A stretch of DNA of 64,000 nucleotides from Chryseobacterium sp. MYb264 (GTDB taxonomy: Bacteria > Bacteroidota > Bacteroidia > Flavobacteriales > Weeksellaceae): assembly GCF_035974275.1 (NCBI RefSeq), contig NZ_CP142422.1:4898001-4962000 (forward strand). The letters are read 5' to 3'. The notes under the pieces are model-generated. The model did not search any database and had not been told where the DNA came from. It was given only the letters and a program-made list of their open reading frames with translations. The translations under genes were made by a program, and so were the position numbers. Numbering within the stretch: position 1 is the stretch's first letter; each line of letters opens with the position of its first letter. Shown here piece after piece: positions 14,413 through 31,275 of the stretch.

Positions 14413-15735
14413 TTACAGCAATTTACCTGTTAAGAAAAGTCCTGCAACGGAAAAATAAATAATAAGCCCCGTAACATCTACCAAAGTAGCCACAAAAGGC
14501 GCGGAAGATGTCGCAGGATCCAGATTTAATTTTTTGAGAATAAAAGGAACCATCGAGCCGGAAAGGGTTCCCCAAAGGACGATGAGAACAAGAGAAACGG
14601 CGACACTGAGGCCTACAAATACCCAATGGATACCGTAGTTAAATAACCCTGTTTCATGCCAGACCATAATTCTAAGAAATCCTATCACTCCCAGAATTCC
14701 ACCGAGAAGAAGCCCTGTAAAAATCTCTTTTTTCATCACGTACCACCAGTCTTTCAAACCGATTTCCTGAAGCGCCATGGCTCTGATAATAAGGGTTGCA
14801 GCCTGAGAACCTGAATTCCCGCCACTGGAAATGATGAGCGGTACAAATAAAGCCAACACAACAGCTTTCTGAATTTCATCTTCAAAATAGCCCATTGCAG
14901 AGGCTGTAAGCATTTCAGAGAAGAAAAGAATAATCAGCCATGTTCCTCTCTTTTTTACCATTTCTACCAGAGAGGTCTGGGTATAAGGTAAATCTAACGC
15001 TTCCAATCCACCAAATTTCTGGATATCTTCTGTGTTTTGGGATTCAATCTGATCCAAAATATCATCAATGGTAACAATTCCTACCAAAACACCGGACTCT
15101 GTTACAATAGGGAGAGCGCCTCTGTCGTATTTTTCGAAATACTGTACAGCATCTTCTTTTGAGGTAGTGGTTGTTATGGCCACGAAGTGATTATCCGTTA
15201 TGTCCGAAATTAAAGTATCCTCTTCTGCCAACAGTAAACTTCCCAGGGCGATATCGTCAATCAGCCGGTTTCTTTCGTCGACAACGTAGAGGTAGTTCAT
15301 GGTTTCTACCTTGCTTCCTACCTTTTTGATCTGCTGAAGACATCTTTTTATGGTCCATTCCTTACGGATCTGGATATAATAAGGCGTCATCAAACGGGCA
15401 ATGGAGTCTGAATTATACCCTAAGAGTTTAAGGGCAATTCTCCTTTCCTGAGGATTCAGATGGTTGATGGAATATTTAATCAGTTCATCAGGGAAATCTT
15501 CAAAAAGAGCCGTCCTGTCATCGGGAGTCATGGCATTCAGAATTTCTGAAACCTCGTCACTTCCGATGCTTCTGATAGTTTCTTCCTGAAAATCAGGATC
15601 AAGGTGAGAGAATACTTCGGCTTTGTATTCTTTCGGAACTTTCAAAAACGCCAAAAGCCTCTCGTCAGCGTGAAGTTCACTAAGAGTCTCTGCAATATCG
15701 GCCGGGTTAAAGATAAGTTCGTCTTTAGAATTCAA
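14413..15735 (-). CDS. mgtE: MgtE magnesium transporter
   Basis: A 440-residue Mg2+ channel/transporter. An N-terminal MgtE superhelical domain (about 1-125) is followed by two CBS domains (about 130-255), which sense cytoplasmic Mg2+, and a five-helix membrane domain (about 265-440). Family motifs include [15 protein letters not shown] and [19 protein letters not shown]; the latter contains the pore aspartate. The only start that keeps the full N-domain is TTG at 15735, which lies 22 nt downstream of a promoter element TATTTTTG (minus strand, 15765 to 15758). It is the first gene of a three-gene minus-strand unit. Confidence 0.95.
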
Positions 15736-15757
15736 AACGTTAAGATTTTAGGATATG

Positions 15758-15765
15758 CAAAAATA
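15758..15765 (-). promoter_or_regulatory. -7 promoter element of mgtE
   Basis: The minus strand reads TATTTTTG, an exact TAnnTTTG, ending 22 nt before the TTG start of mgtE. It supports the TTG start, since the transcript would begin near 15752. Confidence 0.55.
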
Positions 15766-15841
15766 GGGCAAATTTTTAAAATTGGAGAATGTTGACATAA
15801 AATTAAGGATTTCTTAAGATTTCTGTAGGATATAAATAAAG

Positions 15842-15866
15842 AACATCCGCTAAAAAACGGATGCTC
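15842..15866 (-). terminator. terminator after the peptide cluster
   Basis: CATCCG (15844-15849) pairs with CGGATG (15858-15863). On the minus strand the hairpin is followed by a T-rich stretch. It lies about 40 nt beyond the last of the three peptide genes. Confidence 0.6.
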
Positions 15867-15903
15867 AAAAAAATTAAATTTAAAATAAAGTTCCATGTGG
15901 ATG

Positions 15904-16065
15904 TTATGAAAGGAGGGTACAGATCGGAATATCTGAATACACACATACTCCGTAGCTGCAGCATTGGAAAAAGTCACACTGATCGTCTGCAGTGCATTTT
16001 ACAATTTTTCCGCCACCGTTGATGGCTTTTTGCTGTTGTCGGTTTAATTTCTTTAAGTTTTTCAT
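15904..16065 (-). CDS. double-glycine-leader cysteine-rich peptide 1
   Basis: A 53-residue peptide. The leader MKNLKKLNRQQQKAINGG (residues 1-18) is of the Bacteroidota bacteriocin-like type that ends in Gly-Gly. The predicted mature part holds six cysteines at 24, 30, 35, 36, 41 and 49, spaced C-x5-C-x4-CC-x4-C-x7-C, which fits the inhibitor cystine knot pattern. It should be cut and exported by a peptidase-containing ABC transporter, but none lies in this window. Two paralogues with the same leader and cysteine register follow in the 5' direction. Its activity (antimicrobial, signal, other) is unknown. Confidence 0.8.
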   Translation of the reverse strand: MKNLKKLNRQQQKAINGGGKIVKCTADDQCDFFQCCSYGVCVYSDIPICTLLS

Positions 16066-16078
16066 AGTTTATCAGGAA

Positions 16079-16225
16079 TTAGTTAATTGCACATCTGATG
16101 TTGGAACATCGGTCTTCACAGCACCATAATCCTAGGCAATCATTGTCGGTTCTGCACCTTTTAGCTATGGCAGCGCCGGTGATAACGGCCTGTTCTTTTC
16201 TGGAAAGTTTTTTCAGATTTTTCAT
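16079..16225 (-). CDS. double-glycine-type leader cysteine-rich peptide 2
   Basis: A 48-residue peptide, the middle one of three paralogues. The leader MKNLKKLSRKEQAVITGA ends in Gly-Ala rather than Gly-Gly, a common variant of this processing site. The core has cysteines at 24, 30, 35, 36, 40 and 45: C-x5-C-x4-CC-x3-C-x4-C, with a Trp just before the CC pair. Start ATG and stop are both clear, and 13 nt separate it from peptide 1. Same family and export route as its neighbours; function unknown. Confidence 0.8.
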   Translation of the reverse strand: MKNLKKLSRKEQAVITGAAIAKRCRTDNDCLGLWCCEDRCSNIRCAIN

Positions 16226-16237
16226 ATTGTTCAGATT

Positions 16238-16381
16238 TTAAGGTTCAAGACAGGCAAATTCCATACAGGTTCCACCGCAGCACCATCCGTAGACGCATTC
16301 TGAATTACTTTTACATTTTTTCAATGCTCCACCATTGATCAGTTGCTGATCTTTTCGTGAAAGCTTCTTTAAATTTTTCAT
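16238..16381 (-). CDS. double-glycine-leader cysteine-rich peptide 3
   Basis: A 47-residue peptide, first of the three in the direction of transcription. The leader MKNLKKLSRKDQQLINGG is followed by a core with cysteines at 23, 29, 34, 35, 39 and 44 (C-x5-C-x4-CC-x3-C-x4-C), again with Trp before the CC pair. The three genes are 12-13 nt apart and so form one transcript. A weak -7-like TATTTTAG lies upstream on the minus strand. Such leader families are frequent in Chryseobacterium genomes, where they are listed as bacteriocin-like; no target is known. Confidence 0.8.
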   Translation of the reverse strand: MKNLKKLSRKDQQLINGGALKKCKSNSECVYGWCCGGTCMEFACLEP

Positions 16382-16609
16382 ATGATTTAGTTTTAATGTT
16401 GAACTAAAATAATAAAAAATTCCATATTATTCACTAGTCAATGAAAATATTTTTAATGTAAATGATTAATTTTTAGAATTATGCAATGTTTTTTTTGATT
16501 TACAGCAAATGTGAAACACTTGTGAATACAAGTGGAAAGAGAAGTTTTAAAGTAAATAAAACGTAAAGAAAAATGAAAAAGTTATAAAAAATTAATTTTA
16601 AACTATAAA

Positions 16610-17161
16610 CTAAAAACCTGTCTCCGAAGAAGATTTTATTTTTCTGAGTTTCTTTAGAATATCCTTAATGGCCCCATTGGTTCCGATTTTTACAGAGTTG
16701 CTGGTAGATCCTAAAAGGCGCATGTTCTTCCGATAGGTGTCGTAGTCTGTTTCGGTTAAAAGATTTCCTTCTGCATCAAAAAGCTTCATACTGACCACAA
16801 CCTGATTCGAGAAAACATACTTTCCAAGACCCACTTTAAAATACTTTACCTTGGGAACAACCACAAAATCCGCTTCGTTGTTAGTACTGTAATCGATGAT
16901 GGTTTTTGGGTCAATGCTATCGAAGGAGACCTGGGTTTCAGTCCTGATCATTTTATTTTTTCGTTCGCTGAGGTTATCTGAAACGGCACTGAAAAATGCA
17001 TGATTAGTGGGTTCCTTTATTTCCTCAATATCAGGTTCTACCTCGGGATTGAAGTATAGGATTTTTTTTATTTTATCGGTTGAGTTTTTCTGCGCTTTTA
17101 GAAGGGCAGTTCCCGAAAATAATAATAAAGCAAGCGTAACAAAAGATATAGATTTTCTCAT
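16610..17161 (-). CDS. exported protein of unknown function
   Basis: About 183 residues with a signal peptide (RKSISFVTLALLLFSGTALLKAQ). The ATG at 17161 is preferred to the GTG one codon upstream. The mature part has alternating beta strands and a segment DFVVVPKVKYFKVGLGKYV followed by VVSMKLFDAEGNLL, a layout seen in small envelope proteins of the CsgG/GNA1162-like kind, but no family is recognised with confidence. No lipoprotein cysteine. It is monocistronic between the peptide cluster and the divergent rpsO. The gap 16382-16609 shows no gene. Confidence 0.7.
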   Translation of the reverse strand: MRKSISFVTLALLLFSGTALLKAQKNSTDKIKKILYFNPEVEPDIEEIKEPTNHAFFSAVSDNLSERKNKMIRTETQVSFDSIDPKTIIDYSTNNEADFVVVPKVKYFKVGLGKYVFSNQVVVSMKLFDAEGNLLTETDYDTYRKNMRLLGSTSNSVKIGTNGAIKDILKKLRKIKSSSETGF

Positions 17162-27206: not shown

Positions 27207-30104
27207 TTACTTAGCGTAACCATAGAATTTTTCTTTATCTTTTATTAATTCCATAATCTCCTTTACGGTTGTTTCTATTTCTGGAGGTATTTTTAATTCT
27301 AAATTTTCTTCATTGGGATTATTTAATAACATGCTTATATAAAATAATACGGCATATTTCTCCTGTAGATTTTTACCAAAATCAAGATTTCTAAAAAGTT
27401 TGAGAACTAAATTTTTCTGTTGATGAATTAATAGATCTACAATAAAATCTTCTAAATTATCAGAGTCATCTTGTACAATTGAATAGACTCTACTTTCTAA
27501 ATTATTAAATATTCCGTTCCAAATTTCTGCAATAATCAAGTTTTGTGGATCAGTATTGTTTTGCGATAATAGATTAAGCGACTCTTTCTTTTTTATATTT
27601 TGATTGTAATAAAGTATAGCTAAATTATTTGTAGCATTTGTATTGTGATCTTTAATTGCCAATAAATAATATTTTTCAGCTTCTTTGTATTTTTCTTGTT
27701 TTTGGTATAGGAATGCTAAGTTAAATAAAGCATCCTTATCATTTTTTTCAATAGATTGAAGATAGTAATGTTCTGCTAAATCATGTTTTTCTTGTTTTTG
27801 GTATAGGAGTGCTAGGTTAAATAAAGCATGGTTATCATTTTTTTCAATAGATTGAAGATAGTAATCTTCTGCTAGATCATATTTTTCTTGATCTTCGTAG
27901 ATAGTGCCTAAGTTGTTTAGTGCTTTATTATCACCTCTCTCGATAGCTTCAAGATATAGTTTTTCTGCTTGTTCATAGTTTTTTTCATTTTGATAAAGTA
28001 TGGCTAGGTTAAATAATGAGCGAGAATCATTTTTTTCAATTGCTAATTGATAATATTTTTTAGCAAGATTGGATTTTTTTTGTTTATTATATATAACGCC
28101 TAGATTATTTAAAGAGTCAATATTACCTTTTTTAATTGTTAATAAATAATATTTTTCTGCTCGTTCGTAGTTTTCTTGTTCCTGATATAGTCGAGCTAAA
28201 TTAAATAATGCGCCGTCATCTTCATTGTTTTCATCAATTGCCATTAAGTAATATTTTTCTGCTAGATCATATTTATTTTGCTTTTGATAGAATATGCCTA
28301 GGTTGAAAATAGCATTAATGTCATTATTTTTAATAGCTTTAAAGTAGAATTCTTCAGCTTTTTCATATTTATGTTCTTTTTCATAAATTATTGCCAAATT
28401 ATTTAAGGCCTCATCGAAACCATTTTTCAAGGCAAGTATGAAATATTTTTCCGCTTGTTTATACTTTTCTTGATTTTGATAAATTATGGCAAGGTTATAT
28501 GACGCATCACTAAATCCTTTTTTGATTGCTTGTAAATAGTAATGTTCTGCTTTACTATAATTTTCTTGGTCTTCATAAATTACTCCTAAAAAATTAAATT
28601 TAACTCCATCTTCTTCGTTTTCTAAAGAATTTACTAAGTCAAGAGCATGTTTGTGATTATTTTTTTCAAGTTCTTCAATGGCTTGATTTAAAATTTCGTA
28701 TGATTTTTTTGGTAAATGTATTAGTTGTGATTTTTTGTTTTTAGAATTGATTTCTTCTGTCAAATTTAAAATTGAATCTCTTTGTATAAGGGATATATAT
28801 TTGCTTTGGCTCAGCGCTTTAGATAAAATTAAGGCATTGTCATAATCTATTTTTTTATTTACCAATAAATCAATATGATTATTAACCAGATTTTTAAAAT
28901 CATTAGCATCATACCAATTTTCTAAAAATATGCTAAGACATTTTGCTTTTCTTTTTTGTTTGGGATTGCCCTGCGTGAAAATTAACCACATATTAAAAAA
29001 ACGTTCTGAAATTCTATACAGATGGTTTTTTTTTGAGGTTCCAATTTTATCAACAATACCTTTTAATACCAAAGTTTTTAGATTTGCAGAAACGAGTTTG
29101 CTTTCCAAACGAGTTTTTTCAACCAGTTGTTTAGTGGTGCAGGCTTCCCATATGAAAGCCATCTCCAAAACAATCTTTCTTAATTGAGCGGGAAGGTAAT
29201 TTAATCTTTCTTGGTATAAAGGTGTAACATGATCCATGATTTTTTTCAGATAATCATATCCATGAGATTGTGAGTTCTGTAATACAATCTGTATAAAAAA
29301 CTGAAGGGTTCTTGGTAAACCATCTGTTAAAATTCTAATATTTTCCAGCTTACCAGGATTGTTTTTAATGAAATCTTTTAATTCTGTGATGTCAAGCGAA
29401 TCTGCCCAATGATTTAGAAGTAAAAGCATTTCTTCTTTACTCAGACTCTCTAATCTATGTTTTCTAAAAAATTCATAAAATGGCATATCATATTTCCAAA
29501 AATGTTCATCCATTCTGGTACTTCCTGCAATTATTTCTATATCATTGTAGTTAATTAGAGTTTCTCGGAGTAAATTTCCATCGTCACTGAAGTTCTCAAT
29601 AATTCTGTCAAAATTATCTAAAAGTAGAACTATCTTCTTTTTATGTTTTATGCAAGTTTTATGAATTACATCATATAGATGTCTTGTATAATTTTGAGTT
29701 GTATCAAATTCTTCAAAATCTTTTCTATTCTCATTTATAGCGAATTGATGTTGTAACTCTTCAATTACTTGTTCCCATAAATCAAATAGGCGATAAATAC
29801 CAGCTTGTTCTTCCGCAAGATTTATTGGGATGTATTTCTTGTTAAGTTCTCGATTTTCATTAATTTCTATTTCAATTCTTTTGAGAAGTGTTGATTTTCC
29901 GCTGCCTCTTCTTCCGAGTATTAGCTCATGTTGTAATGAGTCATTGGTGTCCTTATTCAATAAAGCTTGAGTAATTATAGTAAATTCAGCATCTCGAATA
30001 ATGAAATTTCGCTTGATTGATTCAAAATCGCTATTTGCGGACTGGTATAAGTTTAATTGATCTATGAACCAATTACTTCTTTTTGTATTGGAATTATGAT
30101 GCAT
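27207..30104 (-). CDS. P-loop ATPase with winged helix and ten TPR-like repeats
   Basis: A 965-residue protein. The N-terminal NTPase has Walker A GRRGSGKST (64-72) and Walker B IVLLLDNFD (about 158-166), as in ORC/STAND-type ATPases. A winged-helix-like region follows (about 320-390). Residues about 500-830 are ten repeats of 32 residues (one of 34), consensus L-x-x-x-Y-x-x-Q-x-x-Y-x-x-A-E-x-Y-Y-x-x-A-I, between TPR (34) and Sel1 (36) types. The C-terminal 130 residues are unassigned. It overlaps the upstream ATPase gene by 11 nt. The ATPase-switch-plus-repeat-sensor plan is that of STAND signalling or defence proteins, but no effector domain is recognised. Confidence 0.85.
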   Translation of the reverse strand: MHHNSNTKRSNWFIDQLNLYQSANSDFESIKRNFIIRDAEFTIITQALLNKDTNDSLQHELILGRRGSGKSTLLKRIEIEINENRELNKKYIPINLAEEQAGIYRLFDLWEQVIEELQHQFAINENRKDFEEFDTTQNYTRHLYDVIHKTCIKHKKKIVLLLDNFDRIIENFSDDGNLLRETLINYNDIEIIAGSTRMDEHFWKYDMPFYEFFRKHRLESLSKEEMLLLLNHWADSLDITELKDFIKNNPGKLENIRILTDGLPRTLQFFIQIVLQNSQSHGYDYLKKIMDHVTPLYQERLNYLPAQLRKIVLEMAFIWEACTTKQLVEKTRLESKLVSANLKTLVLKGIVDKIGTSKKNHLYRISERFFNMWLIFTQGNPKQKRKAKCLSIFLENWYDANDFKNLVNNHIDLLVNKKIDYDNALILSKALSQSKYISLIQRDSILNLTEEINSKNKKSQLIHLPKKSYEILNQAIEELEKNNHKHALDLVNSLENEEDGVKFNFLGVIYEDQENYSKAEHYYLQAIKKGFSDASYNLAIIYQNQEKYKQAEKYFILALKNGFDEALNNLAIIYEKEHKYEKAEEFYFKAIKNNDINAIFNLGIFYQKQNKYDLAEKYYLMAIDENNEDDGALFNLARLYQEQENYERAEKYYLLTIKKGNIDSLNNLGVIYNKQKKSNLAKKYYQLAIEKNDSRSLFNLAILYQNEKNYEQAEKLYLEAIERGDNKALNNLGTIYEDQEKYDLAEDYYLQSIEKNDNHALFNLALLYQKQEKHDLAEHYYLQSIEKNDKDALFNLAFLYQKQEKYKEAEKYYLLAIKDHNTNATNNLAILYYNQNIKKKESLNLLSQNNTDPQNLIIAEIWNGIFNNLESRVYSIVQDDSDNLEDFIVDLLIHQQKNLVLKLFRNLDFGKNLQEKYAVLFYISMLLNNPNEENLELKIPPEIETTVKEIMELIKDKEKFYGYAK

Positions 30105-31275
30105 TGTGTATAGGATTATTTTGTTTCCAATATTCTTTTAAGAATGGTGAGATGAAAGTATAACTTTGGGTATTTTCTACGATATAACCATCTTGTTCTA
30201 AATCATTAACAAAATCCATAAAGTTGTTTTCTTTTTCGTATTTCACGGCGATATTATAGAGTGTCTGTATACTAATGTTTTCCTTGTGAGCAATATGTGT
30301 CAAAATTTCATTAATAAAATTAAAATCTTCTTTTGGTAGGTAGTCCATTAGTCTTTTCTTCCAATCTGAAAAATGGTCATTGTTTTTAATAATTGTATTA
30401 AAAGCTTCATCTATGATGTCATTTGTTACAGTAGAGTTTTTAGTTTTAATAGCTTTTTTATCAATTTCATCAAGAATTAAATTTATAAAATAGGGTACAA
30501 AGTATTGAATTTTACTTTTGATATGTTCAATTAAGTTTTCATTGTATTGTATGGAAGCGCCATTAGTAACTTTATTTATGTATTCGGAAACCTCAACGTC
30601 CGTTAATGGTTGATAAATGATCTTGTATAAATCATTGACGTCTGAATTTCTTCCTGCAATTGCATTAACTACATAATGAATACCTATAGAGCCAGCTAAA
30701 ACAAATTGAATTTTTTTAAAATCATCTTCTTGTCTCCAATGGCGAAGGTTTTTTAGAATATTTAGTGCTGTGTCTTTTTGATCTTTTAGAAAAAGATTGT
30801 GTAACACTTCTGGTAACTCATCTATCAATAAGACAATATTTTCTCCATCCTTATCTAGCTGAGGAATTAAGCTATTGATTTCAGATAAATAGTCAATTCC
30901 AGTAGTTTCTATTTTTATACCTGAAGTGCTTATTTCAGATATCTTCATTTTTGCTATATAGTTTTGAATTAGCGTTTTACTTTTTTTAAATTTGCTTAGA
31001 CAGATAATTATCAAATCATAAATTGTTTTATAAAATTGCTTCTCATCATCAATTCCTTGTACATTTCTAAAAATCAGTTTGTAGTTTTCCTTTGGGTTTT
31101 CTGTTAGAAATTTCATGACAGAGGTTTTTCCAACTCTTCTTGGTGCTGCCAGAAGCACATTGTTTCCTTTTTCTATTTCTCTCCAAACATCATTTTCAAA
31201 GTCTTCTCTCCTGAAATAGAATTTGCCTGTCGCTTCTTTGCCGATTATTATACTAGGTGATATCCAATTTTCCAT
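30094..31275 (-). CDS. P-loop ATPase (archaeal-ATPase/ORC-like), partner of 27207
   Basis: A 393-residue ATPase. Walker A is APRRVGKTS (44-52), Walker B IVLLIDEL (147-154), with a sensor-like VLAGSIGIHYVV and a C-terminal winged-helix-like region ending in TFISPFLKEYWK. The body resembles ATPases of the archaeal-ATPase/AAA_16 type, which bind DNA or regulate signalling, and it has no repeats or effector. It is the first gene of a two-gene operon with a repeat-ATPase; the 11-nt overlap implies coupled synthesis and probably a complex. Its promoter lies in paired dyad repeats (31307-31353). Role unknown; a regulatory or anti-phage role is inference. Confidence 0.85.
   Translation of the reverse strand: MENWISPSIIIGKEATGKFYFRREDFENDVWREIEKGNNVLLAAPRRVGKTSVMKFLTENPKENYKLIFRNVQGIDDEKQFYKTIYDLIIICLSKFKKSKTLIQNYIAKMKISEISTSGIKIETTGIDYLSEINSLIPQLDKDGENIVLLIDELPEVLHNLFLKDQKDTALNILKNLRHWRQEDDFKKIQFVLAGSIGIHYVVNAIAGRNSDVNDLYKIIYQPLTDVEVSEYINKVTNGASIQYNENLIEHIKSKIQYFVPYFINLILDEIDKKAIKTKNSTVTNDIIDEAFNTIIKNNDHFSDWKKRLMDYLPKEDFNFINEILTHIAHKENISIQTLYNIAVKYEKENNFMDFVNDLEQDGYIVENTQSYTFISPFLKEYWKQNNPIHNAS

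Follow-up and report, generated by a model that had tools for sequence, protein, structure and literature searches.

The 64,000-nt window analysed here (positions 4898001-4962000 of the 5.23-Mb single-contig genome of Chryseobacterium sp. MYb264) contains an array of three short minus-strand genes for cysteine-rich peptides with a common leader. An earlier note on this DNA had described three tandem paralogous genes whose MKNLKKL leader ends in GG or GA. This description was confirmed: the three open reading frames (ORFs) lie where that note placed them, each complete from ATG to stop, with intergenic gaps of 12 and 13 nt. Precursor peptide 1 (type A, 47 aa; 16238..16381) has the core pattern C5C4CC3C4C, in which numerals count the residues between cysteines. 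Peptide 2 (type A, 48 aa; 16079..16225) has the same pattern, and peptide 3 (type B, 53 aa; 15904..16065) has the core C5C4CC4C7C. The registers are thus 5-4-0-3-4, 5-4-0-3-4 and 5-4-0-4-7. All three precursors start with MKNLKKL and carry GG, GA and GG, respectively, at residues 17-18; cleavage after this pair would release cores of 29, 30 and 35 residues. Peptides 1-3 scored 25.8, 27.0 and 33.7 bits with the NCBIfam model NF047798 (leader_Chryseo, bacteriocin-like protein), all above its curated cut-off of 23.5. This model describes the common leader over 18 positions and is silent on core, exporter and fold.

The spacing of the six cysteines was compatible with the inhibitor cystine knot rule in 3/3 window peptides, as the earlier note had claimed, and the register is conserved in the genus. 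When cores were shuffled with composition fixed, compatible spacing arose in 503, 633 and 574 of 20000 trials (2.5-3.2%). A scan with the alignment of the three peptides gave at least 75 loci, and 46 of those listed occupy the same genomic place as the window array. Together with the window these 47 loci, the 46 listed being Chryseobacterium records, hold at least 181 array peptides beside mgtE, of which 161 are unique. The peptides were chosen by their leader and not by their cysteines, four ORFs without the leader having been removed beforehand. Of the 181 listed, 178 kept six cysteines with compatible spacing; the exceptions were two five-cysteine peptides and one cysteine-free core. The register is more than chance, because it is rare in shuffled cores and kept in 178/181 of the array peptides listed. 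The two five-cysteine peptides are the second of their arrays (loci L052 and L080) and have tyrosine where relatives have cysteine; the third exception (L082:5448) joins the array leader to an unrelated core.

The array has a fixed place. Among the matches listed, the named relatives of the window peptides were all Chryseobacterium records. A housekeeping gene gave no megablast match among plasmids. Of the 46 same-place loci listed, 45 hold rpsO, orf184 and mgtE, and the remaining one (L058, at a contig end) holds mgtE alone. In the 47 loci the array consists of 1-8 peptides, mostly 3-5, and the last gene is of type B in 42 and of type A in the other 5. A type-A profile matched 158/173 genomes of the genus at E≤0.001. 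In 116/173 genomes the best match reached E≤1e-17, and these were counted as array carriers; below them the best value was 3.9e-10, and the 42 weaker matches may rest on the leader. In a draw of 246 genomes across the family, including the genus itself, matches at E≤1e-5 outside the genus were limited to 8 genomes, the best at 4.5e-11. Among the 57 genomes lacking a strong match, 29 were examined: every one of the 15 matchless genomes, and 14 of the 42 that matched weakly. In 29/29, rpsO, orf184 and mgtE were neighbours; orf184 and mgtE were 81-511 nt apart, and no ORF in this gap had as many as three cysteines. The fact that the flanking genes stay together without the array indicates that the array is optional between two genes independent of it.

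In a Pfam scan of the two flanks, mgtE was identified as a divalent-cation transporter gene, and orf184 matched no family. Both were considered as immunity genes and rejected: they lie side by side in 29/29 examined non-carriers, and since they persist without the array, neither looks like an immunity gene. The statement of the earlier note that no immunity or transporter gene adjoins the array was borne out for exporters and for recognised immunity genes, although mgtE is a cation transporter gene and the small surrounding ORFs were not assessed for immunity function.

AlphaFold2 models of two of the peptides had a mean predicted local distance difference test (pLDDT) of 67.7 and 71.3. Foldseek searches of the PDB with the type-B model returned mostly knottins, at E 1.7-9.4, and the type-A model gave no match. 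PDB sequence searches gave weak matches only, the best being the cone-snail peptide GXIA (E 0.016). Only weak Pfam matches were obtained with the peptides, among them WAP, conotoxin and DUF7107, and those of the three window peptides were all below the cut-offs. The inhibitor cystine knot claimed in the earlier note therefore stands as far as the spacing goes, but as a fold it is weakly supported, by this spacing and by weak fold matches of one of the two models.

Squash inhibitors and their derivatives were frequent and near the top of the type-B Foldseek list, and 1/62 type-A members weakly matched CarbpepA_inh (E 0.0048). These matches suit knottin-core extracellular enzyme inhibitors, which like squash trypsin inhibitors would block proteases of competitors, predators or hosts. 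We regard such a role as quite unlikely, since the fold matches are weak and resemblance in fold is uninformative on function.

The leader family is larger than the array. The homologue search that the earlier note had proposed gave 29 leader matches in the MYb264 genome at E≤1, 17 of them above the cut-off, and these were scattered. Knot spacing was confined to the three window peptides and was absent from the 12 other six-cysteine ones. Cysteine counts were even in 28/29 of these peptides and in 45/48 non-redundant cysteine-bearing leader peptides from the related loci listed, knottin-register peptides having been set aside. Paired cysteines predict even numbers, as seen across the leader family. 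A second model, NF047792 (CCPGW putative bacteriocin), describes peptides with the same leader, and its Chryseobacterium viscerum member (locus L109) has the comparable register C5C5CC4C6C. The L109 peptide served as positive control and scored 116.8 bits, whereas peptides 1-3 scored 19.5, 19.4 and 17.6 bits, far below the cut-off of 80, and differ from that family in this respect.

Other peptide types were seen with the leader. At L035 (genome 1096000-1115000), two 94-aa leader peptides, L006 and L008, at genome 1108600 and 1109088, have four cysteines and long Gly/Val-rich stretches, with four other leader matches within 10 kb; by eye they are a different type, perhaps membrane-active. In each of loci L105 and L089, eight leader peptides that differ in cysteine register are encoded no more than 12 kb from one VKOR gene.

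A C39-peptidase ATP-binding cassette (ABC) transporter, for which the earlier note had proposed a genome search, was found 0.7 Mb from the array. The candidate exporter operon encodes a VKOR-thioredoxin fusion protein, the C39-ABC protein, another leader peptide and an HlyD protein. The VKOR protein has 502 aa with VKOR and Thioredoxin_4 domains, and the leader peptide has 75 aa, six cysteines and the same leader as the array. Four Peptidase_C39 matches were present in the genome, the fourth being weak; of two further C39-ABC proteins, one lies beside a radical SAM protein and one beside another HlyD protein. The radical SAM protein and its adjoining transporter (L036:6058-9580) may be a separate modified-peptide locus.

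Among the loci listed, a VKOR gene was present in 18/29 non-array loci of named relatives. Full-length C39-ABC and HlyD genes accompanied it in 16 of these 18, the C39-ABC proteins being 89.7-91.9% identical to that of MYb264. In 6/18 a leader peptide of the pattern C5C4CC4C12C, a register nearly that of the array, is encoded between VKOR and C39. Because the loci were retrieved through similarity to the query peptides, these six cases establish the link but not its frequency. VKOR was found in 162/173 genus genomes, that is in 116/116 array carriers and 46/57 others, and 10 of the 15 genomes without any profile match were also without VKOR; the counts are uncorrected for kinship. As far as gene content goes, these data suggest a dedicated machine, encoded at another chromosomal site, for exporting and oxidising the array peptides.

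In the VKOR-thioredoxin protein, the N-terminal 130 residues (L034:8805-9194) matched Pfam Peptidase_C39 below the cut-off (E 0.018), from profile position 25; such a match appeared in one of the three proteins scanned. A profile comparison was not significant (probability 0.65 out of 100), and no convincing relative was found in the PDB. The match is a hint that this region could be a leader-binding domain.

These observations bear on whether the cysteines of the array peptides bind metal or pair in an unknotted way, which would make the products small metal-binding or otherwise folded secreted proteins. The knot is unproven, and a divalent-cation transporter gene adjoins the array. However, cysteine numbers are even across the leader family, this family is linked to the VKOR-thioredoxin protein, and mgtE is retained without the array in 29/29 examined genomes. 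We consider metal binding or unknotted pairing improbable.

The diversification that the earlier note had expected of the cores was not supported by substitution rates. Averaged pairwise Nei-Gojobori counts, paralogue pairs included, were made with dS limits of 0.8 and 0.5 (57 and 19 pairs for type B, 270 and 55 for type A). The ratio of nonsynonymous to synonymous rates (dN/dS) was 0.11-0.25 for leaders, 0.29-0.68 for non-cysteine positions of type-A cores and 0.09-0.21 for those of type-B cores. Leaders and cores are under purifying selection, looser in type-A cores. Positive diversifying selection was not supported, as no class had dN/dS above 1, although averaging can hide single fast sites. 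The absence of change in the cysteine columns follows from picking six-cysteine peptides, as does the invariance of cysteines in A2 and A3, and neither is evidence.

Purifying selection, the conserved place and multi-copy arrays would suit exported pheromone-like signals equally well, which would be received by the producer or by related cells and would not act as killers. The lack of a recognised adjoining immunity gene agrees with such a role, and 8/62 type-A members weakly matched the model of the bacteriocin induction factor EntF (best E 0.0015), a likeness that may come from the leader alone. However, 1-8 peptides per locus are many for one signal, and the scanned flanks, mgtE and a Pfam-less protein, are neither receptor nor regulator, genes further out not having been scanned. 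Signalling is in our view unlikely.

The array is probably transcribed as one operon, to judge from the gene spacing and a terminator. A terminator-like hairpin of 11 pairs with a T-rich tail lies on the minus strand directly 3′ of peptide 3 (15841..15866, terminator scan); three terminator-like sites were found in 15700-16700 on both strands, against a shuffled mean of 0.5. Directly upstream of peptide 1 on the same strand is an A+T-rich block (16382..16450, the block end being approximate), which is promoter-like by position only and is partly conserved in the alignment of the 47 array loci. TTG-N-TAnnTTTG is a common promoter pattern of Bacteroidota. It was absent from this block and was found upstream of 1/47 array first genes, with 0.9 expected. 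Upstream of 15 of the 29 leader genes of MYb264, shared 7-mers were not beyond those of shuffles. Elsewhere in the window (27207-31275), two adjoining minus-strand genes have ATPase-like N-termini by eye, one of them followed by many TPR-like repeats.

We lean, with modest confidence, towards the array peptides being C39-exported, disulfide-rich, bacteriocin-like peptides with a double-glycine (GG) leader and a knottin-like core, which would work like bacteroidetocins. The three genes would give one transcript of precursor peptides. The leader_Chryseo leader would be recognised, and cut after GG or GA, by the C39 peptidase of the distant ABC exporter, and export would follow the ABC-HlyD path. 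Three disulfides would be formed from the six cysteines by the VKOR-thioredoxin protein. Once released, the core (29, 30 or 35 residues) would fold knottin-like and work extracellularly, its likeliest targets being competing and probably related bacteria. In our assessment killing of other bacteria is, by analogy, rated first, ahead of signalling and enzyme inhibition.

This chain is plausible because bacteroidetocins, a proposed class IIf of Bacteroidota, have, in the part of the source available, a GG leader, an ABC exporter with a double-glycine peptidase domain and no immunity protein found (PMC6671954). A thiol oxidoreductase is encoded in most of their regions and its deletion attenuates activity, the disulfides being inferred (PMC6671954). 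According to the same part of that paper, the mature peptides have about 42-48 residues, with four cysteines in A and B and at least two in others, and their genes lie beside the exporter with a gene for a five-transmembrane protein (PMC6671954). The array differs from this description in size and neighbourhood, with cores of 29-35 residues, six cysteines and an exporter 0.7 Mb away. In common with C39-exported class II-like bacteriocins, it has double-glycine-type leaders (GG, GA, GG), and the genome encodes a C39-ABC protein beside a peptide with the same leader. The chryseoviridin graspetides come from the same genus and have several precursor genes with tandem duplications, but as far as the source was available their precursors are encoded with ATP-grasp enzymes (PMC8939145); the two scanned flanks of the array are not such enzymes, no wider search having been made.

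A broader reading is possible but doubtful. The knot-folded array peptides and the many scattered disulfide-rich peptides would form a genus-wide knottin arsenal sharing one leader and one machine, in which the VKOR-thioredoxin protein would tie the disulfides during export, possibly docked to the leader through its degenerate C39-like N-terminus.

The leader and the putative bacteriocin role are already recorded in NCBIfam, where the CCPGW family of comparable register is named. The present analysis adds to this the array with its conserved knottin register, the optional position of that array next to mgtE, and its link to a VKOR-thioredoxin/C39 exporter. Literature searches by the names NF047798, CCPGW family and leader_Chryseo, and by set phrases for bacterial knottins, found no paper, subscription journals being mostly uncovered. 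The knottin scaffold is valued for its stability and is known mainly from eukaryotes. The solved knottins named here (squash inhibitors, cyclotides, cone-snail and spider peptides) are eukaryotic, whereas a bacterial GG-leader/C39 route to a putative knot is what we infer for the array. If true, bacteria would offer a genetically simple way to make knottins, and a peptide family publicly annotated only as bacteriocin-like would gain a mechanism, with one leader tied to dozens of differing disulfide-rich cores in a Gram-negative genus.
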